A stretch of 28,190 nt of DNA from the IMG/VR virus record IMGVR_UViG_3300006919_000313, positions 1-28,190 of that record, one strand, 5' to 3'. Shown one piece after another: positions 1 through 28,190 of the stretch (the stretch's first letter is position 1; every line of letters begins with the position of its first letter). The notes under the pieces were generated by a model, which saw nothing but the letters and a program-made list of their open reading frames with translations, was not told the DNA's origin and did no database searches. This DNA is from a virus. A program made the position numbers and the translations under genes.

Positions 1-60
1 CCGGAAGGGCTTGCGACTGGCGATGTGTGGAATGATTCCGGCACGCTGAAAATTGTTTAG
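1..60 (+). CDS. C-terminus of a phage tail protein (partial)
   Basis: Frame 1 is open from the window edge to a TAG at 58-60 and gives 19 residues ending in GDVWNDSGTLKIV. This Gly-x-x-W-N-D-x-G-x-L-K-(I/V)-V ending is a common C-terminus of phage tail or baseplate proteins. The tail genes that follow support this. The start lies outside the window, so neither length nor function can be judged further. Confidence 0.6.
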   Translation, partial: PEGLATGDVWNDSGTLKIV

Positions 61-87
61 TAACTCCAAGCCAGAAAGGGCTTTCCA

Positions 88-336
88 ATGTCTGACGACT
101 TCTCCGGTTTCGCGCGCGGCCTGACATCTCCCGGCGTCTATCACAAATCATTGACGGCAACCGTGGCGGATATCGATCCAAAGCCGCTTGTGATCCGCTG
201 CGATGTGGCGGGCACTGCAACGCTTGTTGATGCGGATGGCGTGTCTATCGCCTATAATCTTGCCGCTGGCGAGCGTATCGACTGGCGTCCAACCAAGTTC
301 ACGGCTGGCACTGCAACCCTAATCGCTTGGTGGTAA
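88..336 (+). CDS. spike base protein-like (RCAP_Rcc01079 type), 82 aa
   Basis: An 82-aa protein with the layout known for the spike base protein family first named in the Rhodobacter gene transfer agent: an N-terminal D-x-F...GL-x-SP segment, then short beta strands with Gly-Thr-Ala patterns, and a hydrophobic Trp-Trp end. In gene transfer agents such proteins sit at the base of head spikes; here the gene lies in the tail/fibre module. An AAAGGG Shine-Dalgarno lies 7 bases before the ATG. The next gene starts 3 bases after the stop, so the two are probably co-translated. The family call rests on length and residue pattern only. Confidence 0.65.
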   Translation: MSDDFSGFARGLTSPGVYHKSLTATVADIDPKPLVIRCDVAGTATLVDADGVSIAYNLAAGERIDWRPTKFTAGTATLIAWW

Positions 337-339
337 TCA

Positions 340-2394
340 ATGCCCGGATATGGCTACGGCTACGGCTACAGTTCGCGCGGTGGGCCGCTTGGCGTCTCTC
401 TCTCCTACGACCTTACCGAATACGAATGGGCCGAGGCGTGGTTCACATACGTTGACCCAGGCGCGGCGGGCACTGCGGTTGGCCAGATTCGAGACGTTGG
501 CGTTCTGGCAGACGGCACGATTGTCGCCACTGGCGGGCAGACGGCATATCCAGGCACACCTACCGCCGTTCGCTATGCAGTCACTGGAGGCACATCGGGC
601 GCGGGAACGCCTCTGATTGCGCACTTGGCATGGTTCGACCGGGACGATGGCAGCATCATCCGCGTCGTTGAGATCGGCAGCACCACTGGCTATGAGCGCG
701 CCTATGCGCTGGACGTGGCCACGCTGCCCGGATATGGCGAAGTTGTTGTCATAGCGGGCCGCGCTGGCGATGCGTTCTATACGACGACAGGGGCATATCA
801 GGAGACGTTCCAAGGCGACAGCAACCCCAACACCAACCCCTATGGGCCGCAGGATGGGTTTGTATCCATCTTCCGGGCGTCGGACGGCACGTTGCTTGCG
901 TCGTCCTATGCCGGTGCGCCAGACGGCGACCTGGCGCGAGACGTGCAGGTAATGGGCAGCAGCATTTTGCTCGCCAAGTCGCGCTACGGCGGCGGCACGC
1001 CAACGTCCAGCAATGACCTGATTTCCTACACCTACGATCTGTCTGACCGGAACTGGGTATGGAGCCCTGGAAACTCGCCAAACAGTGAAGGCGGAACCCC
1101 GTCAGCCACCCTTGGCGATGGCTATATATTTGTCCAAATGTCCACGGATGCCGAGCCGACAACGGGAACGACAACGGGCGCGCTGGAGGAAACATGGAAC
1201 GGCGGGCAATCAGTTCAGTACGCCGTGAAGCTGACCCAGGCAGACCCGCCGGTACTGGTTGCCGCGACATACCTGATTGACGGGAATGGGCTGGTCAACA
1301 ACACGGCAGAGACGCACTCTGCCAGCTATAGCCCGCTGACCAAGCATCTGGCGATGGCGACGGTTGTCGGCTTTGGCTATGACGCGCCGGTCACGCTCGA
1401 TGCTGCGGTATCGACCCAGCACGGCGGCACCCTTGGCCCGTCCGGCTTGGTGACGGTGTTGGATGCCAACTTGGCGACCATAATCTATTGCACCTATATC
1501 GACGGCACAACGAACGACGTGCTGACATCGCCCGATGGATGCGTCTACCACACCGATGGGCGCTTCGCTGTTGGCATTGAAAAGACGACTTCGCCGACGC
1601 TGCCGGTCACTGACGGCTCGACGTATCCCGGCTATCAGACGGGCGCGGTGTTCGTCTTTGCGCCGGACGGTGCGGGCAGCTATGTGCTGGAATTTGGGTC
1701 ATATGTGCCAGAGGCGGAAATCCGATGTGTCGGCTGGACGCCTGAAGGCGACCTTTTGATTGGTGGCCGCGCGCATGATGGCGGTAGCGGAAGGCCCGCA
1801 AGTTTCGTCCAGTTGTACGACCGTCTGCCCACTGAGGCGCACTTCAACAAGGCACCTCTGGCCAACGTCTACCTCGAAACGCCAGCGGCGCTTACGACAA
1901 CGCTGCCGGCATTCACCGGGGCAGTTGGCACCTTCGCGGCCCGCTTGCGCAAGCCTGACGATGGCCTCAACGCGGGCATTTTCTTTATGACCGGCGATTT
2001 GGATGTGTCGATGCGTGACACAATATCGAATCAAATTCGGGCCAGCTTTAAGGGCGGCGCTAACGAGTTCAGTGCGTCGAATGTTTACCGCAATGACCGG
2101 TTTCTCACGCTCCTTGTAACATTCGACTTTGCCGCTGGCTTGGCTTACGTCTACATCGACGGGGTGGAAGTGCTGGAATACACCGCCCTTGCTGGATCGC
2201 AGGCCATCGGCACGAACCCGCTTAGCATGTTGAAGGGCACGGCCTATGGCATGGAATGCGCTTGGTTGCGATGCTGGAATGTTTATAGTGCCGATGGTAG
2301 TATTCCGACGGAGACGCCCCTTATCGACGAGGGGCCGGACCCGGATGACGTTAATATCAGCCCGTACATCGCGGGCACCGCAGCTTACACATAG
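340..2394 (+). CDS. large virion/adsorption protein with C-terminal lectin-like domain, 684 aa
   Basis: 684 aa, rich in Gly, Thr, Ala, Asp and Tyr, with almost no Lys or Cys. It begins with a short Tyr-Gly tandem repeat (residues about 3-10). Residues about 30-480 show repeating beta-strand blocks with G-D-G/A-D-G and V-V-x-G-x-A patterns, compatible with a beta-propeller. Residues about 495-665 resemble a concanavalin A/LamG-like jelly roll (F-A-A-R-L-R-K-P, then L-L-V-T-F-D, then Y-V-Y-I-D-G-V-E). Such proteins bind host surface glycans as fibres or decorations. It lies 3 bases after the spike base gene and before a lipoprotein and a tailspike-like gene. The exact structural role is inferred. 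Confidence 0.7.
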   Translation: MPGYGYGYGYSSRGGPLGVSLSYDLTEYEWAEAWFTYVDPGAAGTAVGQIRDVGVLADGTIVATGGQTAYPGTPTAVRYAVTGGTSGAGTPLIAHLAWFDRDDGSIIRVVEIGSTTGYERAYALDVATLPGYGEVVVIAGRAGDAFYTTTGAYQETFQGDSNPNTNPYGPQDGFVSIFRASDGTLLASSYAGAPDGDLARDVQVMGSSILLAKSRYGGGTPTSSNDLISYTYDLSDRNWVWSPGNSPNSEGGTPSATLGDGYIFVQMSTDAEPTTGTTTGALEETWNGGQSVQYAVKLTQADPPVLVAATYLIDGNGLVNNTAETHSASYSPLTKHLAMATVVGFGYDAPVTLDAAVSTQHGGTLGPSGLVTVLDANLATIIYCTYIDGTTNDVLTSPDGCVYHTDGRFAVGIEKTTSPTLPVTDGSTYPGYQTGAVFVFAPDGAGSYVLEFGSYVPEAEIRCVGWTPEGDLLIGGRAHDGGSGRPASFVQLYDRLPTEAHFNKAPLANVYLETPAALTTTLPAFTGAVGTFAARLRKPDDGLNAGIFFMTGDLDVSMRDTISNQIRASFKGGANEFSASNVYRNDRFLTLLVTFDFAAGLAYVYIDGVEVLEYTALAGSQAIGTNPLSMLKGTAYGMECAWLRCWNVYSADGSIPTETPLIDEGPDPDDVNISPYIAGTAAYT

Positions 2395-2405
2395 GAAGGC
2401 CAACC

Positions 2406-2672
2406 ATGACAAACCTTGCAAAGTTCCTGCGCATCGCTTGCCTCGGCGGTGGCGTGCTTGGGCTCTCGGCCTGCGCGGTCGCTACCGACTTGATCAATCA
2501 GGGCCGCCCCTACGCAGCCCGCACGGCGGCGGAACTGGTACAGGCCGAGTGCGCCCTCCCTATCAGCGAGCGCAAACTCAATGCTGAAGCCGTCGCCGCG
2601 CTATTGCTGGCAGCGGGAAGCCCGGCACTGTTCAACCTTGATTGCCAAGGCGACGGCCAGAAGGACTTTTAG
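2406..2672 (+). CDS. small lipoprotein, 88 aa
   Basis: The N-terminus is a lipoprotein signal: Lys and Arg early, a hydrophobic Gly/Leu stretch at residues 10-20, and the lipobox L-S-A-C with the modified Cys at residue 23. The mature part would be 66 aa, mostly Ala-rich helix with two further Cys. AGGAAGG precedes the ATG by 6-7 bases. It lies between two virion genes. It could be an outer-membrane spanin or a superinfection-exclusion lipoprotein; the sequence does not decide. No overlapping inner-membrane spanin gene is present next to it; the only coiled-coil membrane protein nearby begins at 4113. Confidence 0.75.
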   Translation: MTNLAKFLRIACLGGGVLGLSACAVATDLINQGRPYAARTAAELVQAECALPISERKLNAEAVAALLLAAGSPALFNLDCQGDGQKDF

Positions 2673-2675
2673 CCC

Positions 2676-3986
2676 ATGCGCACGCTCTCCCCGGTTACAC
2701 AGGCCGATGCCTACAGCGCACTACGGAACGCCGGGGCGGGCGATACCGTCAAGCTGGGCAATATTGCCATGGACAGTCTCACTGGCGGGACTGCGATTGC
2801 CCCCGGCGTCACCATCGAAGGCGGGCAATTCACCCGGATCAACGGCGGGTGGAATAAGGTCAAGTTCCTGGGGCCAACGCTGCGACCGAACGGCATTGGC
2901 TTCAACACAACTGCCATCATCCTGCATGGTGACGATTGCATTATTCAGGGCCTAGACCTGGATTGCCGCGACGGCGCTTTGTGGACTGTGCGCGACTGGC
3001 GTGACCGCTCAACGGGCGGGGTCATGTTCTATGGCCACGGGTGCCAGCTTATCGGCGGCGCTATGTACGGCGTCCGCACGGGCTTTGTAGCCCAGCATTC
3101 TAGCACTGGCGCGCGCGTTGAGGGCCTGCGGATCAAAGGCATTTCCGGTGACGCCTTCCGCCCAAACGGCAACGGCACGCGCATTGCGCTATGCGACGTC
3201 ACCGACACTTGGGCGGTTGACGGCAATCACGATGATATGGTCCAGGCGTTCGCGCTTGATCCGGCGACCGGCAGGCCAACCAAATCAATGGCCCATTCGG
3301 TCGATGATGTGCAGATTGTCGGCAATGAGTTCTATTCCTGCGACGACCCGGCCAACGAAATATGGAGCCGGACGGCAGAGCCGGGGCCTATCAACCCGGA
3401 CGCGCCGCCGCTTATATCCGCGGGGCAGGGCATATGGATGGGCGATGGTGCGCCGCAAAACTGGACTGTTGACGGCAACCTGCTTGTTCTCACGCCATGG
3501 AAACACGGCATCAGCCTTGGCGGCGCTATCGGCTGCCGGGTAACGAATAACCGCGTGATCGACGGCAACCCGCGCTATCGTGGCGAGGGCCTGCGGATTT
3601 TCGTCCGGGCCGGGAATGGCAATCAGGTCGTAGGCAACGAAGCGCCAAGCGTGCCGAAGTATCAGGCGCACAACCGGGAAATTCCGCCGTCCGACTATGC
3701 CAAGCATTACAAAGACCCTGCGCGCTTCGACTTCCGGCCAATCGGCTCCGTTCCGGCCCCGGTCCCCGTCCCTCCGGCTCCGGTCCCGCCGCCCGTTGTT
3801 GTGCCAGAGACGCCGGTTGATGAGCCACAAGAGCCGTTGCCGGTAGACTTTCTCTTCAGCGATGATGGAAGCGGGCCTGGGGTAATCCCAGAGCCGCCAA
3901 CCGATGAGCCACAAGCGGCCATCGTTGCGGAGATCGAATCCGGGCTGGCAAACCTGACGGCGCTTGTCGCCAAACTGAAAGGTTAG
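2676..3986 (+). CDS. right-handed beta-helix tailspike-like protein, 436 aa
   Basis: Residues about 15-320 carry the repeat pattern of a right-handed parallel beta-helix (pectate-lyase fold): successive short strands with G-x-x-I/V-x-G and N-x-V/I turns, for example VTIEGGQF, VEGLRIKGISG, VQIVGNEFYS, CRVTNNRVIDGN. Phage proteins with this fold are tailspikes that bind or cut surface polysaccharide. A proline-rich linker (Pro-Val/Ala repeats, residues about 352-375) and a short acidic then coiled C-terminal region follow, perhaps for oligomerisation. The gene starts 3 bases after the lipoprotein stop. No catalytic residues can be assigned with confidence. Confidence 0.75.
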   Translation: MRTLSPVTQADAYSALRNAGAGDTVKLGNIAMDSLTGGTAIAPGVTIEGGQFTRINGGWNKVKFLGPTLRPNGIGFNTTAIILHGDDCIIQGLDLDCRDGALWTVRDWRDRSTGGVMFYGHGCQLIGGAMYGVRTGFVAQHSSTGARVEGLRIKGISGDAFRPNGNGTRIALCDVTDTWAVDGNHDDMVQAFALDPATGRPTKSMAHSVDDVQIVGNEFYSCDDPANEIWSRTAEPGPINPDAPPLISAGQGIWMGDGAPQNWTVDGNLLVLTPWKHGISLGGAIGCRVTNNRVIDGNPRYRGEGLRIFVRAGNGNQVVGNEAPSVPKYQAHNREIPPSDYAKHYKDPARFDFRPIGSVPAPVPVPPAPVPPPVVVPETPVDEPQEPLPVDFLFSDDGSGPGVIPEPPTDEPQAAIVAEIESGLANLTALVAKLKG

Positions 3987-3997
3987 CGGCACAGTGC

Positions 3998-4044
3998 CAG
4001 CATACGATTGTATAGGTGTGATATACTTCACAAGTGGTATGCTG
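3998..4044. repeat. inverted repeats in the gap after the tail genes
   Basis: The gap after the tailspike gene holds an 8-bp perfect inverted repeat, CAGCATAC at 3998-4005 and GTATGCTG at 4037-4044, enclosing a second one, GTATA at 4010-4014 and TATAC at 4022-4026. The inner part is AT-rich, with TATACT at 4022-4027 as a possible -10 element but no good -35. It could be an operator or promoter for the coiled-coil gene, or a weak transcript end for the tail genes. Confidence 0.35.
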
Positions 4045-4113
4045 CCCGGCGTGCAAGTCTCGCACGATGCAACATTTGTGGAAGCCTCTCATGCCGTTTG
4101 GCCCTATGCCTAA
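4039..4113 (+). CDS. tiny ORF, possible leader coupled to the next gene, 24 aa
   Basis: ATG at 4039 opens a 24-codon frame (starts MLPGVQVSHD) whose TAA shares its last A with the ATG at 4113 (TAATG). This stop/start overlap is the usual border in this phage and would explain how the next gene is translated without a clear Shine-Dalgarno. There is no strong ribosome site before 4039 itself and no homology that I recognise. It may be chance. Confidence 0.3.
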   Translation: MLPGVQVSHDATFVEASHAVWPYA

Positions 4114-4490
4114 TGCCGATAAACGCCGAAGCATTTATGGCGATGGTCGTAGCCATGGTAGGGGCTCTTTGGCTGTTTATTCGCAACCTCGTGGCACGGC
4201 AGACGGAGACGCAGGATCAAACCCGCAAGATGGAAGCGGCGCACGCCAAGCGCTTGGAAGAGATCATAATCGAGAACAGCCGCCGCATCGAGGCGCTGGC
4301 AATGTCTTATGCCGACCGGGTGGAAGCGGGGAAGGCGGCTCACTTACAGGATACCCGCGAGATGCTTTCTCAGGTAATGGACTTGCAGCGGGAATCCTTA
4401 GAGACGGCCCGCGCGATGGCCGCCTCTGTAGAGCGGCTGGCGAGGTCAGAGAGCAACAGGTCGAAAGTTTCGAGTTGCACCACGCCTTAA
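4113..4490 (+). CDS. membrane-anchored coiled-coil protein, 125 aa
   Basis: One transmembrane helix near the N-terminus (residues about 9-25, ending ALWLFIRNL) is followed by a long charged helix with heptad spacing (residues about 35-110), a predicted coiled coil. This layout fits an inner-membrane spanin or another phage envelope protein. I chose the ATG at 4113 because it overlaps the stop of a 24-codon ORF; the next Met at 4137 also keeps the membrane helix. The last ten residues (ending SSCTTP) break the heptad pattern, while the -1 frame continues it. Function is not certain. Confidence 0.55.
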   Translation: MPINAEAFMAMVVAMVGALWLFIRNLVARQTETQDQTRKMEAAHAKRLEEIIIENSRRIEALAMSYADRVEAGKAAHLQDTREMLSQVMDLQRESLETARAMAASVERLARSESNRSKVSSCTTP

Positions 4491-4567
4491 AGCGCGTCAT
4501 GGCCGAAATACGCCGCGGCCTGGATGAATTGGACACCATCATAGACCGCGACGGCACGAACGGTTAA
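4475..4567 (+). CDS. short out-of-frame coiled-coil segment (frameshift product or small gene)
   Basis: In the -1 frame relative to the preceding gene, about 40 codons before the TAA at 4565-4567 look coding: charged, helical and heptad-like (HALKRVMAEIRRGLDELD). Possible starts are TTG at 4475 or ATG at 4499, both without a good Shine-Dalgarno. A -1 shift near 4440 would join it to the upstream coiled coil smoothly. No classical slippery heptamer is present at that place. It may be a small overlapping gene, a frameshifted extension, or the result of an old indel. Confidence 0.35.
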   Translation: MHHALKRVMAEIRRGLDELDTIIDRDGTNG

Positions 4568-4734
4568 ACTGCGTCGTCCATAAAGTCCGCCTTCCCAAGT
4601 TTGTCGAGATACGCGATGGCTTTGAGGGCTGTGCGCAAGCGTTCGATCTCGTCAGCAGCTTCAGCGTGCAAGTCTGGCGAAATGTCAAACCGTCCGTCCA
4701 AAAACCGCAGCCGCTCAACAATGTCCTTTTCCAT
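4564..4734 (-). CDS. small helical phage protein, 56 aa
   Basis: Starts MEKDIVERLR and ends ADFMDDAV. The middle holds the LHAEAADEIERLR pattern seen in many short phage proteins of unknown role. The ATG at 4734 is preceded by the ribosome site inside the 33-bp border repeat at 4731-4763. It is the last gene of the early minus-strand operon and converges on the plus-strand frame ending at 4567, overlapping it by a few bases. No terminator is visible between them. Confidence 0.7.
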   Translation of the reverse strand: MEKDIVERLRFLDGRFDISPDLHAEAADEIERLRTALKAIAYLDKLGKADFMDDAV

Positions 4735-4737
4735 CAC

Positions 4738-4926
4738 TCATTCCCCTCCTTTGGCCGGTCGATTGCGCCAGCGCCGCCAACGCCGCCACTGCATGTCCGC
4801 TACGGTACCCGCCGCCATAAAGGCAGACAAAGCCGCAGCAGTGTACTCGCCCCAGATGAGAGACAGCCCGGCGATGGCTATTGCCATGATCAGCATTCCG
4901 TGGTTTTCGTGGTCCCTGCTCGTCAT
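4738..4926 (-). CDS. small membrane protein, 62 aa
   Basis: Starts MTSRDHENHG. It has one or two hydrophobic helices (residues about 11-40, with AIAIAGLSLIWG and AALSAFMAAG), then an Arg/Trp-rich tail. An AGGGGA ribosome site precedes the start by 8 bases. ATG at 4926 is preferred over the overlapping frame from 4933, which lacks the membrane pattern. A size of about 60 aa with two hydrophobic segments fits a holin or another small phage membrane protein, but no lysis enzyme is next to it. Its last codons lie in the 33-bp border repeat. Confidence 0.6.
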   Translation of the reverse strand: MTSRDHENHGMLIMAIAIAGLSLIWGEYTAAALSAFMAAGTVADMQWRRWRRWRNRPAKGGE

Positions 4927-4939
4927 CACTCATTCCCCT

Positions 4940-5170
4940 TCACATGCTGTCGTAGGTGTCTCGAAGCGCCGCGTGCGCTTCGAGCATCGCAACAACATCG
5001 CCAGAAGCCAATGCCCGTGCCGCCTGATCAAGTTCGGCCTCGATAACCGCAATCGTCAATTTGGCCATCGGGGCAACCTTAGCCACCTCCTCATAGGATG
5101 GGATAACCACAGTTCGAACCTGTGCCATCAAATCCGGCAGCGCGTCCGCAAGCGTGTTGATATCGCTCAA
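4940..5170 (-). CDS. small helical phage protein, 76 aa (TTG start)
   Basis: Ala/Leu-rich helical protein starting (M)SDINTLADA and ending DTYDSM. The start is a TTG at 5170 with AAAGGA 7 bases upstream; the nearby ATG at 5176 is in another frame and gives only a very short product. It lies in the early operon between two membrane proteins and ends just before the AAGGGGA ribosome site of the next gene. I do not recognise a family. Confidence 0.6.
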   Translation of the reverse strand: MSDINTLADALPDLMAQVRTVVIPSYEEVAKVAPMAKLTIAVIEAELDQAARALASGDVVAMLEAHAALRDTYDSM

Positions 5171-5195
5171 ATCTCATTCCTTTCCGCGGTTAGGC

Positions 5196-5357
5196 TTACA
5201 CGGCGAAAACCGCCAAGTTGCTAGCCCCGCCTCCCAAAAGCCCTATACCGACACAGCACCACGCATCAGAAAACCGGCGATAGTTGCAGGCCATATCAAT
5301 GGAAAGGGCGATTAACCCCGCCCCGCCGATCATCGCCGCAGTCGTTGCCCAGGCCAT
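5196..5357 (-). CDS. small two-helix membrane protein, 53 aa
   Basis: ATG at 5357 shares one base with the TGA of the gene upstream (TGATG). The product starts MAWATTAAMI, has a first hydrophobic helix at residues 3-22 (GGAGLIALSI), a polar turn with Cys and Arg, and a second helix at residues 33-53 (CCVGIGLLGGGASNLAVFAV). It ends four residues after the second helix. Its ribosome site lies in the 33-bp border repeat at 5354-5386. It may be a small holin-type or envelope protein; nothing more can be said. Confidence 0.6.
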   Translation of the reverse strand: MAWATTAAMIGGAGLIALSIDMACNYRRFSDAWCCVGIGLLGGGASNLAVFAV

Positions 5358-21642: not shown

Positions 21643-21725
21643 CCCCTTGCACCATGCCGCAAGCCGCGGTACAAGAGCTTACTCAGTGCGTAGCGCGGGG
21701 TTTCCTTCTTGGTTGGTTCGAGATG

Positions 21726-21756
21726 CGCCCCAGGTCAAAAGCCTGGGGCGTTTTCT
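21726..21756 (+). terminator. rho-independent terminator of the replication operon
   Basis: A 9-bp perfect stem CGCCCCAGG (21726-21734) and CCTGGGGCG (21742-21750), loop TCAAAAG, followed by TTTTCT. It closes the plus-strand operon that begins at 15005 and separates it from the convergent XRE gene. The 80 bases before it contain no gene. Confidence 0.9.
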
Positions 21757-21761
21757 CTGCG

Positions 21762-21950
21762 TCACCAGTCAGGCGGGCGATACCCGTCCAGATAAGCGCG
21801 CAGCAGACGGGCAGCCGCGGGGCCTATGTTTTTTGTGCCGCGCTCCAGGTTGCTTATAGCCATTGCAGAGCGATAGCCTAAGACGCGGGCAAGCCCGGCC
21901 TGTGTAAGGCCGAGCCGCTGGCGAGCGGTGGAGATTTCAGATGGTGTCAT
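21762..21950 (-). CDS. XRE-family helix-turn-helix regulator, 62 aa
   Basis: Starts MTPSEISTARQRLGLTQAG. The HTH is classical: A-R-Q-R-L-G-L-T-Q-A-G-L-A-R-V-L-G-Y-R-S-A-M-A-I-S-N-L-E-R-G, then helices A-A-A-R-L-L-R-A-Y. It is short, a single domain without an oligomerisation or peptidase domain. The upstream gene has nearly the same first 18 bases. It probably represses its own promoter (22326-22354), which contains a dyad. It could control the neighbouring late switch. Confidence 0.85.
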   Translation of the reverse strand: MTPSEISTARQRLGLTQAGLARVLGYRSAMAISNLERGTKNIGPAAARLLRAYLDGYRPPDW

Positions 21951-21997
21951 TGTTTGTTCCACGGCGTCGGACGCGGGGCCGGATCCCCGTTGCGGTG

Positions 21998-22276
21998 CTA
22001 CTCTACCGGCAGTGTTTGAGCCGGATCGTCTTGGCTGCATCCGCCTTTGTATCCGGCAGGCCGATTGGTAAAGCCAAAATAATTGGTCAGCTTTGGCTCG
22101 GTGCCAAACTTCCGGCTTCCAATAACCGGGGCGTCAAACCGGCAAGCAAAGAGAAAACGCTTGGTGGAGGATGCGCGGATAACTTCGCTCTTCCCGGCAG
22201 CATCGTGGCCCATATAGCGAAATTTCCCGGCGCTGAGTTCCTGGCAGGTTATCTTGGTGATTTCGGATGGGGTCAT
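21998..22276 (-). CDS. phage protein of unknown function, 92 aa
   Basis: Starts MTPSEITKITCQELSAGKF; AAGGAGA is 7-8 bases before the ATG at 22276. It has beta strands and basic residues (R-Y-M-G-H-D-A-A-G-K-S-E-V-I-R-A-S-S-T-K-R-F-L-F-A) and a C-terminal part with K-L-T-N-Y-F-G-F-T. It is co-transcribed with the XRE gene, 47 bases apart. It may be the partner of the regulator, but it lacks clear toxin motifs. Identity of its start with the XRE gene is discussed as a finding. Confidence 0.55.
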   Translation of the reverse strand: MTPSEITKITCQELSAGKFRYMGHDAAGKSEVIRASSTKRFLFACRFDAPVIGSRKFGTEPKLTNYFGFTNRPAGYKGGCSQDDPAQTLPVE

Positions 22277-22391: not shown

Positions 22392-22420
22392 TTGACCAAA
22401 GCGCGACCCGCTGGCATTAT
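22392..22420 (+). promoter_or_regulatory. promoter of the 159-aa gene
   Basis: TTGACC (22392-22397), 17-base spacer, CATTAT (22415-22420). Transcription would begin near 22427 and give an 87-base leader to the ATG at 22514. Just downstream are three GAGCGC words and a CTGG-AGCG-CCAG dyad (22434-22445), possible regulator contacts. It diverges from the XRE promoter. Confidence 0.6.
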
Positions 22421-22451
22421 CCGCCATAGAGCGCCTGGAGCGCCAGAGCGC

Positions 22452-22488
22452 GCATGGATGGATGGCTTAGGGGCTGTACCATCCATGC
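22452..22488 (+). promoter_or_regulatory. leader hairpin of the 159-aa gene
   Basis: A 10-bp perfect stem (GCATGGATGG at 22452-22461, CCATCCATGC at 22479-22488) encloses a 17-base loop with TTAGGGGCT (22467-22475). The loop is complementary to the loop of the short RNA made downstream (23071-23079). The ribosome site AAGGGG lies 14 bases after the stem. It probably affects translation of the gene. Confidence 0.5.
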
Positions 22489-22513
22489 CGCTCGCCAACG
22501 CAAAGGGGATTGC

Positions 22514-22993
22514 ATGAGCCAGCCCGACCACGTGCAGATACACCGTGAACGGTATCACCAGGTTGTGCCGGTCGAAGTCACCATAGCGCACACTGCAAAT
22601 GGCCGCAAAACCCGGACCATCGCCAAGCAATGCGCAATGCACGCCACATCTTGGGCAGCACTCTCCGAAACTCAGCAAGAGGCCGCGTTACACATAGGGC
22701 GGTGTTTCCGCGTTATAGCGAAGTCGCCCGCCAAGGCCATGGACTATGAACGCGCCCAAATGCCAAGAGGCGCAGGCATTAACCCAGAGTTTGAGCAAGC
22801 GCTAAAGGCGGACTACTTCGCGTGGTGGGTCTTATGTATGGACGATCAGATAGACCCCAATCCGGCAAGGCTTGTCTGCGGAGAAGGCGTCTACATCAAC
22901 CAGATGACCACGTCAGGACACCGCCGAAAACTGCTGACCGAGCAATACCACAAAAGCCTGGACGTGATGGCGAATATGAAAGGCTGGCGATAA
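22514..22993 (+). CDS. candidate late-gene regulator, 159 aa
   Basis: Starts MSQPDHVQIHRERYHQVVPV; AAGGGG is 5 bases before the ATG at 22514. The protein is alpha-rich and basic at the start (A-N-G-R-K-T-R-T-I-A-K-Q-C), with a central W-A-A-L-S-E-T-Q-Q-E-A-A and a C-terminal A-R-L-V-C-G-E-G-V-Y-I-N-Q...R-R-K-L-L-T-E-Q. I do not recognise a family. Position is telling: it ends 4 bases before a consensus -35 element that drives a short RNA with a terminator, followed by the terminase genes. This is the place of antiterminator Q in lambda. A Q-like role is inferred from context only. Confidence 0.55.
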   Translation: MSQPDHVQIHRERYHQVVPVEVTIAHTANGRKTRTIAKQCAMHATSWAALSETQQEAALHIGRCFRVIAKSPAKAMDYERAQMPRGAGINPEFEQALKADYFAWWVLCMDDQIDPNPARLVCGEGVYINQMTTSGHRRKLLTEQYHKSLDVMANMKGWR

Positions 22994-22997
22994 CCGC

Positions 22998-23026
22998 TTG
23001 ACACACGCAGGCGGAAACGCTAGTAA
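22998..23026 (+). promoter_or_regulatory. strong late promoter (pR'-like)
   Basis: A perfect consensus TTGACA (22998-23003) and TAGTAA (23021-23026) are 17 bases apart. The predicted start is near 23033. The promoter begins 5 bases after the stop of the 159-aa gene and faces the terminator at 23103-23137 and then the terminase genes. Confidence 0.7.
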
Positions 23027-23032
23027 ATCAAG

Positions 23033-23137
23033 TATGTCGCGAGAGGCGGCACAAAAATCTGGCGCGCATTAGCCCCTAACCGGATGCGCGCTCTGAGAGA
23101 AGGCCCCGCGATTTTCCCCCGCGGGGCTTTCGCTTTT
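23033..23137 (+). ncRNA. short structured RNA (about 100 nt), 6S/pR'-like leader or sRNA
   Basis: Between the promoter at 22998 and the terminator no gene exists. The RNA would fold into an 8-bp stem GCGCGCAT (23062-23069) with ATGCGCGC (23084-23091), a 14-base loop containing AGCCCCTAA, and the terminator hairpin. The loop and the right arm are complementary to the leader of the 159-aa gene. It could be the short transcript made before late activation, or a regulatory RNA. It also lies next to the small terminase gene, so part of this DNA could be a packaging site. Confidence 0.55.
23103..23137 (+). terminator. rho-independent terminator before the terminase genes
   Basis: An 8-bp perfect stem GCCCCGCG (23103-23110) and CGCGGGGC (23120-23127), loop of nine bases, followed by TTTCGCTTTT. 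It lies only about 75 bases after the start of transcription and 20 bases before the small terminase gene, so expression of the head genes from the upstream promoter requires read-through. Confidence 0.85.
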
Positions 23138-23157
23138 CTGGAATATGGAGCGGACAC

Positions 23158-23700
23158 GTGGCAGCGCCGAAAGGCAACAAGTTCTGGCTTGCGCGGTCAT
23201 CGCATGGGCGCGACCCGATATTTAAGACGCCAGATGCCCTATGGTCAGCCGCTGTTGAATATTTCGAGTGGGTGGAGGATAACCCGCTTTATGAAGCCAA
23301 GGCATTCAACGACAAGGGCAATATCGTCATTGCTCATATGGAGAAAATGCGGGCCATGACAATTGACGGCCTGACGAACTTTCTTGATATCGGGGATCAA
23401 ACGTGGCGGGATTACAACAATCGCGAAGATTTTTCGTTGGTCTGTGCGCAAATTGCAAAAATCATCCGTCAACAGAAGTTTGAAGGCGCAAGTGCAGACC
23501 TGCTGAATCCGGCGATTATCGCTAGAGATTTGGGGCTTGCCGACAGAAAAGAGCATGCGGGCGACCCCAGCGCGCCCATTCACTTGAGGGTTAGCGCACA
23601 GGCCGAACGGGCAGAACTGATTGAGCAAGCAACCAGACTTGGCGTCGATCCGGCACTTCTTGGCCTCACTGGAAGCGCACAAGAAGGCGACGACGCTTAA
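23158..23700 (+). CDS. terS: small terminase subunit (P22 gp3-like DNA-packaging protein), 180 aa (GTG start)
   Basis: The N-terminus (M)AAPKGNKFWLARSSHGRDP, then I-F-K-T-P-D-A-L-W-S-A-A-V-E-Y-F-E-W, and I-R-Q-Q-K-F-E-G-A-S-A-D-L-L-N-P-A-I-I-A-R-D-L-G-L are hallmarks of the gp3-type packaging protein family. Such proteins form rings that recognise the packaging site and control the large subunit. The start is a GTG at 23158 with GGAG 7 bases upstream. It overlaps the large subunit gene by 80 bases. A gp3-type small subunit suggests pac-type or cos-type headful packaging; the site itself is not identified. Confidence 0.85.
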   Translation: MAAPKGNKFWLARSSHGRDPIFKTPDALWSAAVEYFEWVEDNPLYEAKAFNDKGNIVIAHMEKMRAMTIDGLTNFLDIGDQTWRDYNNREDFSLVCAQIAKIIRQQKFEGASADLLNPAIIARDLGLADRKEHAGDPSAPIHLRVSAQAERAELIEQATRLGVDPALLGLTGSAQEGDDA

Positions 23701-25108
23701 ACCATCCGGCCCGCTGTTAGACTTCGCGAAGTGGTTCTTTTACGACCGGGAACGGATGGCCTTTATCGAAGGGCCGCACCATAGGCTGATTGGCGAGACG
23801 CTTGACCGGGTGTTGACCGGTGACATAACCAGGCTGTTGATTACGGTTCCGCCTGGATACACCAAAACAGAATTGGCGGTTGTGGCCTTCATCGCCAAGG
23901 GGTTTCAGATTAACCCGGCAAGCCGCTTTATTCACGCCACATTCTCAGACGATCTGGCGCGGGAAAATAGCAGCAAGATAAAAGACCTAGTGGAAAGCGA
24001 GGCATTCGCCGAACTAAGCCCAGGCTTTGGCATCGCGGCGGATTCATCGGCCAAGGACCGGTGGAAAACAATGGCGGGCGGCGGGCTACTGGCCAAGGCG
24101 GCGGGCGGTCCAATTACCGGCTTCAGGGCGGGCCTTATGGACCCCGGCAAATTTACCGGCGCTCTGATTATCGATGATCCGCTAAAGCCAGATGATGCCT
24201 TTTCGCCGACACGCAGGGCAGCGGTTAACCAGAGGGCAACCAATACATTCCGCAGCCGGTTGGCGCATGATGGAGTGCCGATCATCGTCATCATGCAGCG
24301 GCTACACAACGACGATTTCGCGGGCCATCTATTGCGCGGCGGGTCTGGCGACAAGTGGCATCATCTGGATTTGCCGGTAGAGATAACCGCGGGGCATGAA
24401 TACCCGCCTGATTGGACGCACGGCATACCGATAGAGCATGATTTGCCGGATGGCCCGCTATGGCCCGCAAAGCATACCTTGTCGGAAATCGAGATATTGA
24501 GGGCAGACGCTTACACGTTCGCCAGCCAATACATGCAGCGGCCCGTTAGCATTGAAGGCGCGTTGTTCGATATGGCCGGGATCGAGTGGTATAACGAGCC
24601 GCCCGAATGCAGCGAATATTGCATCTATGCGGATACCGCACAAAAGACGGGCGAGCGCAACGATTGGAGCGTGTTCCAGCTATGGGGCCGTGCCGGGCAT
24701 CGCATCGCGCTAATGGACCAATTGCGAGGCAAATGGGAAGCGCCAGAGTTGGAGCGGATGGCCGTTGCCTTCTGGGAAAAGCACCGTTTCAAGCGTCCGC
24801 ATGGGTTTAAGGTAGAGGATAAGGTTTCAGGCACTGGCCTAATCCAGACGCTTCGCCGTAAGGGTTTGCCCATGATTGGCATTCAGCGCGGCAAGGACAA
24901 ATATACCCGCGGGCTTGACGCGGCCCCATGGATAGCAACCGGGCAAGTGATGTTGCCTGCGAATGCTGAATACACGCCAGCGCTAAGGAGCGAATTGCAG
25001 ATGTTCGATGGCCTAGGCACCGGCTTTGATGATCAGGTTGACCCGTTAATGGATGCTATCGACGACTTTCTGGCGTTCCCAGCCGCGCCGCGGATCAGGT
25101 CGCTATAA
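23621..25108 (+). CDS. terL: large terminase subunit, 495 aa (TTG start)
   Basis: ATPase part: Walker A-like V-P-P-G-Y-T-K-T at 76-83, Walker B region A-L-I-I-D-D at 181-186, and a coupling motif near I-V-I-M-Q-R-L-H-N-D-D (222-232). Nuclease part: the first acidic residue in Y-A-D338-T-A-Q-K-T-G-E-R-N-D and the last acidic cluster in F-D-D-Q-V-D-P-L-M-D-A-I-D-D near the end. It pumps DNA into proheads with the portal and cuts it. The TTG at 23621 overlaps the small subunit gene by 80 bases and has only a weak ribosome site; later TTG codons are possible. Confidence 0.95.
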   Translation: MSKQPDLASIRHFLASLEAHKKATTLKPSGPLLDFAKWFFYDRERMAFIEGPHHRLIGETLDRVLTGDITRLLITVPPGYTKTELAVVAFIAKGFQINPASRFIHATFSDDLARENSSKIKDLVESEAFAELSPGFGIAADSSAKDRWKTMAGGGLLAKAAGGPITGFRAGLMDPGKFTGALIIDDPLKPDDAFSPTRRAAVNQRATNTFRSRLAHDGVPIIVIMQRLHNDDFAGHLLRGGSGDKWHHLDLPVEITAGHEYPPDWTHGIPIEHDLPDGPLWPAKHTLSEIEILRADAYTFASQYMQRPVSIEGALFDMAGIEWYNEPPECSEYCIYADTAQKTGERNDWSVFQLWGRAGHRIALMDQLRGKWEAPELERMAVAFWEKHRFKRPHGFKVEDKVSGTGLIQTLRRKGLPMIGIQRGKDKYTRGLDAAPWIATGQVMLPANAEYTPALRSELQMFDGLGTGFDDQVDPLMDAIDDFLAFPAAPRIRSL

Positions 25109-26343
25109 TGGCGTTCTGGAACCGCTGGCTATCGCGCAAAGAGAGCGCGGTTGCATCGTTGCACATACTCAACCCAGGCCAGCCGGTATGGTCGCCAAAG
25201 GACTATAAGGCGTTCGCAGAAGAAGCCTACATGCGGAACGTGGTCGCCTATCAGGCAATCAACCGCGTGGCCGAGGCAGTTTCAAGCGTGCGGTGGATGG
25301 CGTGGCGAGGGAAGACGGAACTTACTGAAAGCCCATTGCTTGACCTTCTGGCGCGTCCAAATCCGCAACAGGGTCAGGCTGAATACATTCAGGCAAAGAT
25401 TGGCTTTTTGCTGATTAGCGGCAATGAGTATGAGGAGCGCGTGACCGTCCGCAATGAGCCGCGTGAGATTTACACGCTTCGGCCTGACCGGATGAAAATC
25501 ATACCGCCGAGCAATGGCGGAGAAATGACGTTTCGCTACAGCGTCGGAAACGGCAAGTATCGCGATTTTGTGGCGGACCCAATCACGGGCAAGGGTGATC
25601 TACATCATACCCGGCTCTTTAACCCGCTCAACGACTGGTACGGCATGAGCCCGATTGAAGCCGGGGCATATTCGGTAGATCAGCACAACGAAAGCATGAG
25701 CCTTATGCAAGCGCTCTTGCAAAACAGCGCCAGACCATCCGGCGCGCTTGTCTCAGAAACGCCGCTTTCAGATGACAACTACAACCGGCTGAAAGCCCAG
25801 ATGGAGGACCAGTATCAGGGCGCAAAGAATGCAGGCCGCCCGATGCTGCTTGAAGGCGGTGTATCGTGGCAGGCTATGGGTATGAGCCCGAAAGACATGG
25901 AGATATTGGAGACCAAATACAGCGCCGCGCGTGATGTGTCGCTGGCGTTTGGCGTCCCTGCCCAGCTTATGGGCATTCCCGGCGATAACACATATTCCAA
26001 CTACCAGGAAGCCCGGCTGGCGTTCTGGGAAGATACGGTAATCCCGCTTGTGGAACGGGTGGCGGACAACTGGACCAATTCACTTGGCGAGGCTTTCGGC
26101 GGGTTGGAGATCAAGCCGGACTATGACCACGTTCCGGCGATTGCGGAAAAGAAGCGCGTGCTTTGGGATATGGCAGACAAGTCTATGGACCTGACCATAA
26201 ACGAGCGGCGGCTGATTAAGGGTTATGAGCCGTTGCCCGATGGCGATGTCCTGCCGACAAAGCCAGCCGCACCGGTTGCGCCAGATCCTGCGTTGAGCAA
26301 GTCAGACCTGACCGCCTTGGCTTATGGGCTTGATCTAAAGTGA
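25108..26343 (+). CDS. HK97-type portal protein, 411 aa
   Basis: ATG at 25108 shares a base with the terminase stop (TAATG). Portal signatures: A-Y-M-R-N-V-V-A-Y-Q-A-I-N-R-V-A-E-A near residue 40, L-L-A-R-P-N-P, G-N-E-Y-E-E-R-V, L-R-P-D-R-M, H-H-T-R-L-F-N-P-L-N-D-W-Y-G-M-S-P-I-E-A, and G-V-P-A-Q-L-M-G-I-P-G-D-N-T-Y-S-N-Y-Q-E-A-R. The protein forms the dodecameric ring at the head vertex through which DNA enters and leaves. Length is normal for the family. Confidence 0.95.
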   Translation: MAFWNRWLSRKESAVASLHILNPGQPVWSPKDYKAFAEEAYMRNVVAYQAINRVAEAVSSVRWMAWRGKTELTESPLLDLLARPNPQQGQAEYIQAKIGFLLISGNEYEERVTVRNEPREIYTLRPDRMKIIPPSNGGEMTFRYSVGNGKYRDFVADPITGKGDLHHTRLFNPLNDWYGMSPIEAGAYSVDQHNESMSLMQALLQNSARPSGALVSETPLSDDNYNRLKAQMEDQYQGAKNAGRPMLLEGGVSWQAMGMSPKDMEILETKYSAARDVSLAFGVPAQLMGIPGDNTYSNYQEARLAFWEDTVIPLVERVADNWTNSLGEAFGGLEIKPDYDHVPAIAEKKRVLWDMADKSMDLTINERRLIKGYEPLPDGDVLPTKPAAPVAPDPALSKSDLTALAYGLDLK

Positions 26344-27530: not shown

Positions 27531-28184
27531 ATGGAATACAAATCAGCCGCCTTTGAACTGAAGGCAGAGCCGGACGATGCAGGCGTGTTTGAAGGCTATG
27601 CTTCGGTTTTCGACGTGGTGGACCAGGGGCTCGACGTTGTAAAGCCCGGCGCGTTTGCGAAGTCGCTGGCAGGCGGGCGGAAGGTCAAGATGCTATGGCA
27701 GCACGATCAAAGCCAGCCGATTGGCGTATGGGAAAAGGTGGAAGAGGACGAGCGCGGGCTATTCGTTCGCGGGCGATTGGTCAAAGGCGTTCGCCGTGCG
27801 GATGAAGCCGCGGCGCTGTTGAAGGCTGGCGCAATGGACAGCATGTCAATCGGCTATCGCGTCAAAGAGGCAAGCGATGAAGCGGGCGGGCGCATTCGGG
27901 CGCTTGATGAGGTGGAACTATTCGAGGTTAGCCTTGTCACGTTCCCCATGCTGCCAGACGCGCAGGTAACGGCGGTCAAGTCGATCAGGACAATTCGAGA
28001 TTTTGAGCGAGCCTTGCGGGATGCGGGTTTCTCTCAAACGGAAGCCAAGGCCATTGCGGCCCAGGGTTTCAAAGGGCTAGCAGAGCATCGGGACGATGTG
28101 AAAGCAGAGCCGGTAGCCGAGCCGCCTGATACGGGCGGCTTTTTTGATGCAATCAGGCAACTGGAAAGGCAATTTCATGTCTGA
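27531..28184 (+). CDS. HK97-type prohead protease, 217 aa
   Basis: Family S78-like: E-G-Y-A-S-V-F-D-V-V-D-Q-G-L-D near the start, catalytic His in M-L-W-Q-H58-D, catalytic Ser in M-D-S-M-S106-I-G-Y-R, then V-E-L-F-E-V-S-L-V-T-F-P-M. It cleaves scaffold and capsid N-termini during head maturation. The C-terminal helical part (R-D-F-E-R-A-L-R-D-A-G-F-S-Q-T-E-A-K) is usual. It overlaps the next gene start by 8 bases. Confidence 0.95.
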   Translation: MEYKSAAFELKAEPDDAGVFEGYASVFDVVDQGLDVVKPGAFAKSLAGGRKVKMLWQHDQSQPIGVWEKVEEDERGLFVRGRLVKGVRRADEAAALLKAGAMDSMSIGYRVKEASDEAGGRIRALDEVELFEVSLVTFPMLPDAQVTAVKSIRTIRDFERALRDAGFSQTEAKAIAAQGFKGLAEHRDDVKAEPVAEPPDTGGFFDAIRQLERQFHV

Positions 28185-28190
28185 CGATAA
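28177..28190 (+). CDS. start of the next gene, probably major capsid protein (partial)
   Basis: An ATG at 28177, with GGAAAGG about 8 bases upstream, opens MSDD before the window ends. It overlaps the protease stop. In HK97-type phages the major capsid gene follows the protease, so this is the likely identity. Only four codons are visible. Confidence 0.5.

Follow-up and report, generated by a model that had tools for sequence, protein, structure and literature searches.

A putative Q-type late-gene switch with an unrecognised regulator family and a conserved leader RNA in phages of probably alphaproteobacterial hosts

Genes and promoters ahead of the late operon

The analysed window is a whole IMG/VR record of 28190 bases. 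It begins, in 1–5224, within apparent tail or fibre genes and ends after a prohead protease gene (PF04586, E 8e-36). The record is probably a fragment, because it seems to lack the major capsid gene and some of the tail genes (1–5224, 27531–28190). Its plus-strand late genes include those for a P22 gp3-like small terminase (terS, 23158–23700; PF16677 E 1e-25, phrog_606 E 3e-50) and, from profile matches, for the large terminase (terL, 23621–25108) and the portal protein (25108–26343). terS is the first late gene and starts with GTG at 23158, as the initial annotation had it. The host is probably an alphaproteobacterium, since the nearest terS at the DNA level belongs to a Paracoccus phage and phrog_21451, a family of unknown function matched by the regulator described below, points to Caulobacter.

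Upstream of terS lies a plus-strand regulator gene of 159 codons (22514–22993), enclosed in a frame of 179 open codons (22454–22993). The start at 22514 is retained because a relative, L003, carries an identical ribosome-binding site and start, AAGGGGATTGCATGAGCCAGCC; the 159-aa gene ending at 22993 that had been called earlier is thus confirmed. A promoter found by consensus scan, TTGACC-N17-CATTAT with a TG before the -10 (22392–22420, plus strand), precedes the gene and is kept in L003. Two small genes on the minus strand (21762–22276), one of them coding for an Xre-type HTH protein (phrog_14076, E 1e-20), are transcribed away from the regulator, which therefore has its own divergent promoter region and does not lie inside the replication operon. 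A strong 11-bp hairpin terminator with a TTTTCTC tail (21725–21751) separates the replication genes from these divergent regulators.

Behind the regulator gene, the late promoter TTGACA-N17-TAGTAA occupies 22998–23026 on the plus strand (-35 TTGACA at 22998–23003, -10 TAGTAA at 23021–23026). It had been proposed at this place and is indeed present there, but the description of it as strong does not hold: the -35 is perfect, while TAGTAA matches only 3/6 of TATAAT and lacks the final T, which is why it is absent from the consensus scan. By itself, TTGAC is frequent, with 54 copies in the window. Four distinct sequences with the module could be compared, namely the window and three IMG/VR relatives (L003/L004, L002 and L005/L094), and in all four TTGAC stands 33–34 nt before a GTATG, the bases between them, including the -10 region, having diverged. 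Because this spacing is constant, the late promoter is beyond chance. From these features we infer that transcription starts near 23032, at GTATG. The TATG that would occupy +2 to +5 is invariant; tested as a sigma-dependent pause sequence, it is a poor match to a -10. The spacer stretch GGCGGAAA (23010–23017) is a candidate binding site for the regulator, as a GGCnAAA-like stretch recurs in the spacer among the relatives. It is not diagnostic elsewhere, where scans gave chance matches in coding sequence. By eye, no QBE-like direct repeat of the TGAGCA type was seen in the late promoter spacer.

A conserved three-hairpin leader RNA that ends in a terminator

The late promoter is followed by a stretch expected to be transcribed into a leader RNA of about 105 nt (23032–23137, plus strand), composed of GTATG, hairpin P1, a linker ACAAAAATC, hairpin P2 and hairpin P3. 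P1 (23036–23050) is GTCGC-GAGAG-GCGGC, with a 5-bp stem and a GANAG loop that is found in all four sequences. P2 (23062–23091) pairs GCGCGCAT with ATGCGCGC and exposes the loop stretch GCCCCTAACC. P3 (23099–23137) is an intrinsic terminator supported by scan, fold and conservation, with the stem GAAGGCCCCGCG/CGCGGGGCTTTC (23099–23110/23120–23131) and the tail GCTTTT. The strong terminator announced at 23103–23137 is therefore there as a hairpin (stem 23099–23131), but its U-tract is interrupted. The claim that no gene lies between promoter and terminator was borne out, the only ATG frame having 12 codons and no conservation; a leader peptide was discarded since this frame, which starts at 23034 in the window and is also found in L003, shrinks to 2 codons in L002 and L005.

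The RNA 23030–23137 folds at -50.4 kcal/mol with a z of -3.74, and 0/200 shuffles were as good. The corresponding z values are -3.35 in L003 and -2.50 in L002; the L005 RNA has a different free fold, yet the same stems can form. No Rfam covariance model matched the RNA at E <= 5. Across the four sequences, the P2 loop GCCCCTAACC and the linker AAAATC are invariant. When the window/L003 type is compared with the L002/L005 type, 2/5 pairs of P1 and 4/7 of P2 have changed on both sides with pairing kept; these were counted by hand, since the automatic alignment had slipped by one base in P2. This covariation is real, but it has little depth, as the four distinct sequences amount in effect to two RNA types. 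A possible GCCCC/GGGGC interaction between the P2 loop and the P3 arm was rejected, being absent in L002 and L005. A pattern search with AAAATC/GCCCCTAACC returned 17 stretches, 4 of which were the element; of the 13 others, 11 were copies of a single coding sequence and two occurred once, and all of them lacked the hairpins and the promoter. The sole additional match of a second pattern search, L101, falls inside an apparent coding sequence. Judged by this conservation, three hairpins and one loop of the short RNA look to be under selection. The initial annotation had taken a 100-nt RNA for the default product of the switch; a short RNA ending in a terminator fits that view, but it does not look like a mere by-product. 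We consider the leader RNA a conserved structure in itself, which is new, and it probably has a further function, with a protein or an RNA binding specifically to its loop.

The module as a whole, i.e. the regulator gene, the TTGAC/GTATG spacing, the three hairpins with their invariant loop and the terminator before the late genes, is kept in the three relatives. In each of the four sequences P3 ends 10–21 nt before the first late gene. This leaves no room for a separate promoter after P3, a possibility that was accordingly dropped, and the spacing implies that late mRNA must pass through P3. In L002 the first gene of the late operon is ParB-like (PF02195, E 9e-7) and the second is a DNA-modification gene of the Mom-like kind (PF25680, E 7e-43), after which a different terS follows (the two genes occupy L002:1981–3193). 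Since the RNA element stays at the promoter there, it is a property of the late promoter and not of terS. L002 also has, between its regulator homologue and the late-RNA element (L002:1710–1830), TTGCAC-N18-ATAAAT, an untranslated stretch and a G+C-rich hairpin with a T run, so that it possibly carries two tandem terminators before the late genes. L008, which has a related terS, shows TTGACG-N17-TATAGA, about 150 untranslated nt in which a TATG is equally spaced from the promoter, and, ahead of terS, a strong terminator; its RNA is unrelated in sequence to that of the module, and because the contig begins only about 200 nt upstream of this promoter, the position of the regulator falls outside it. 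The overall claim of a lambda-like late switch can thus be kept as far as gene order is concerned: Q, pR', short RNA, tR' and late genes have their counterparts in this order, conserved in four phages, but the promoter is not strong.

Conservation of the RNA raises the alternative that the RNA itself is the switch, i.e. a cis-acting antitermination signal of the put/nut type whose P1 and P2 loop would be recognised by RNA polymerase or by an N-like factor. P1 does have a 5-bp stem capped by a GANAG pentaloop, and the P2 loop, invariant above changing stems, includes CUAACC, which is also the hexaloop sequence of the phage 21 boxB (PMC12550061). The closing C-G pair of the CUAACC loop is nevertheless missing outside the window, and identity with the phage 21 boxB was rejected because the agreement is limited to the CUAACC letters. 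Moreover, the RNA ends in its own terminator, which would be pointless under a constitutive put-like signal, and a regulator gene of the same family stands upstream of the RNA in four sequences. We therefore regard a cis-acting RNA switch as very unlikely.

One further feature of the RNA concerns the regulator's own mRNA. The interval between the regulator promoter and its start codon holds an insert of about 64 bp (22426–22489, plus strand) which has no counterpart in L003 and no match in other viral contigs. It contains a hairpin (stem 22452–22461/22479–22488) whose loop TTAGGGGCT (22467–22475) matches the late-RNA loop AGCCCCTAA as its reverse complement, as well as CAGAGCGCGCAT (22444–22455), complementary to 23084–23095 in the same antiparallel register as the loop match. 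Together, the insert and the late RNA form 21 pairs in two runs that are in register. This value was reached by 0/3000 dinucleotide shuffles of the leader, and other 87-mers of the window gave at most 16 pairs with the late RNA. A TTAGGGG inside the L003 regulator gene (L003:5383) could pair with the late-RNA loop along 7 nt, which may be due to chance. The complementarity to the regulator leader was found in one phage only, that of the window. The insert, known from this one example, could serve feedback pairing or be a functionless copy of P2 that has been inverted and has diverged; it hints at RNA feedback on the regulator. The wider proposal that the short RNA is a structured regulatory RNA beyond its role as default product, acting through the conserved GCCCCUAACC loop and, in this phage, closing a feedback loop by pairing with the mRNA leader of its own antiterminator, is doubtful.

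Carried further, this reasoning would make the RNA mainly a trans-acting small RNA and the late promoter its source. The invariance of GCCCCTAACC, which is predicted to be unpaired, the leader complementarity in the window and the precedent of StxS, a small RNA from an early-terminated Shiga-toxin transcript (PMC12197685), would all suit such a role. The complementarity to a regulator leader is confined to one phage, though, with no other phage target of the late RNA evident, and a trans-acting RNA would be compatible with a Q-type switch anyway; as the main purpose of the locus it seems highly improbable.

The regulator belongs to no Q family by sequence and is predicted to resemble phage 21 Q

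Three Q families are defined by sequence, PF06530, PF03589 and PF06323 (PMC7171158). The PF06530 (Q21) profile matched none of the four regulator homologues at E <= 10, and neither did the lambda Q (PF03589) and Q82 (PF06323) profiles match the regulator, which is consistent with an unrecognised family. More generally, the 159-aa protein has no match to a Pfam or NCBIfam family, no meaningful sequence match to solved structures, no relatives in phages and plasmids (tblastn) and none in genome contigs. A weak Pfam match to Pertussis_S1 (E 0.05, below the cut-off, in one homologue only) was taken as chance, and DUF6456 (PF20057) gave weak structural neighbours only, with no sequence match at E <= 10 in four records. 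The profile of phrog_21451 matched three homologues (E 9e-6, the value for the window protein, 5e-4 and 7e-8). Among the four homologues 39 positions do not vary; some of these form an N-terminal AHT..GRKTR stretch.

AlphaFold2 was run on the four-row alignment, and the two models, of the window protein and of the L003 protein (45% identical), share that alignment. The window model shows a confident helical domain at about residues 44–159, with a gap at 77–85. When the top Foldseek candidates were re-aligned for ranking, Q21 took ranks 1–3 among solved structures for the window model (6p1a, Z 6.8, 94 residues, 3.3 A) and again for the L003 model (Z 6.5, 6.5 and 6.0; best match 6p19, 95 residues, 3.5 A), followed each time by sigma region 4. 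Residues 44–159 of the regulator are thus predicted to resemble phage 21 Q and sigma region 4. This pair of matches is coherent, because 21Q is reported to combine a sigma-region-4-like domain with a packing helix and to bind a direct-repeat site in the promoter, its helices H3–H6 resembling sigma region 4 (PMC6606751). Z values of 6–7 lie under the tool's caution line of 8, in the range where chance matches are warned of. As plain Foldseek against the PDB matched no solved structure and both models derive from one alignment, the fold match is support rather than proof. The structure prediction therefore goes part of the way with the earlier assignment of the 159-aa protein to an unrecognised antiterminator family: Q21 comes first in two models, at Z values below the caution line. 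Together with the gene order, these models make a Q-like antiterminator of an unrecognised family the most likely identity of the regulator.

The main rival of a Q switch is classical activation, in which the 159-aa protein would stimulate initiation at the late promoter with its weak -10, P3 being a leaky attenuator or the end of the regulator transcript. A -10 with 3/6 matches is what activator-dependent promoters have, the predicted domain would bind DNA near it, sigma region 4 is the second-best fold class, and the Caulobacter gene-transfer-agent cluster needs an activator, GafY, together with GafZ, an antiterminator with a sigma-like HTH (PMC11150451). Such an activator would nonetheless leave unexplained why a terminator stands 10–21 nt before the first late gene in four sequences, and in both models sigma region 4 ranks below Q21, which is an antiterminator. 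We hold activation of initiation to be unlikely.

The proposed switch and its closest known relatives

A check made without regard to genomic position came from Foldseek against viral models, in which an uncharacterised 172-aa protein of the Rhodobacter phage RcRhea, A0A0K1LM32, appeared in both searches, at rank 12 and then at rank 3 (probability 0.99). From its length we infer that it is gp44, the only 172-codon gene in the RcRhea record. This gene directly precedes the late region, and after its stop codon come CCCCG, TTGACT, about 150 non-coding nt, gp45 and then, across the record end, terS. The structural neighbour thus appears to sit at the same genomic place as the regulator. No clear terminator and no stable fold were found in the gp44–gp45 region. 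In the Paracoccus phage vB_PkoS_Pkon1 the p32–terS region reads gene, TAG, GGCG, TTGACT, a short stretch, hairpin terminators and terS. Both regions share with the window a gene, its stop codon, a TTGACT within 4–5 nt, an untranslated stretch and late genes; they differ from it in that the Pkon1 gene and the RcRhea protein have no sequence similarity to the regulator, the RNAs are unrelated and RcRhea lacks a clear terminator. This arrangement thus recurs in alphaproteobacterial phages.

Together, the parts observed in the sequence, their order and conservation, the lack of room for a promoter after P3 and the computed Q21/sigma-region-4-like fold make a late-gene switch of the lambda/phage 21 type (Q/pR'/tR'), with an unrecognised Q-like family, the likely reading. 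RNA polymerase would start near 23032 at the late promoter and, by default, would make the three-hairpin RNA of about 105 nt and stop at P3. Meanwhile the 159-aa protein would be made from its own promoter at 22392 and accumulate, then load on polymerase at the late promoter by means of its sigma-region-4-like DNA-binding domain and the site between -35 and -10. The loaded polymerase would read through P3 into terS, terL, the portal gene and the remaining late genes. In this phage, pairing of the regulator leader with the late RNA would add feedback.

To our knowledge, little is known of late control in alphaproteobacterial phages apart from the regulators of gene transfer agents. Our results point to an unrecognised family of Q-like antiterminators in phages that probably infect these bacteria, and offer a small module in which to study how unrelated proteins can arrive at one and the same way of antitermination. 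Conservation of the leader RNA also raises the question of a function for the RNA that a Q switch seems to make as 'waste'. The RNA and regulator families are unrecognised ones, while the mechanism is most likely that of the known Q-type switches.

Compared with Q-pR'-tR' of lambda and phage 21, the locus shows the same order of elements, from the regulator gene through the late promoter, a short untranslated RNA and an intrinsic terminator to the late operon, and the fold predicted for its regulator is like that of phage 21 Q. It differs in that the regulator has no sequence relationship to PF03589, PF06530 and PF06323, terS (or a ParB-like gene) opens the late operon and the structure of the leader RNA is conserved. 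The -35 is perfect here, whereas 21PR' has none (PMC6606751), and no TGAGCA-type direct repeat was seen. Caulobacter GafZ, the antiterminator of a gene transfer agent, resembles the regulator in its sigma-like HTH, its alphaproteobacterial setting and a binding element between -35 and -10 (PMC11150451); as differences, GafZ acts together with GafY and IHF, and the terminator in its case is found downstream of the first gene. StxS and other small RNAs from prophage late leaders are, like the RNA predicted here, short products of early termination of the late transcript, and StxS sets a precedent in that an RNA from a late leader acts in trans (PMC12197685); sequence and host are different, and for the RNA of this phage a role in trans would be hypothetical.
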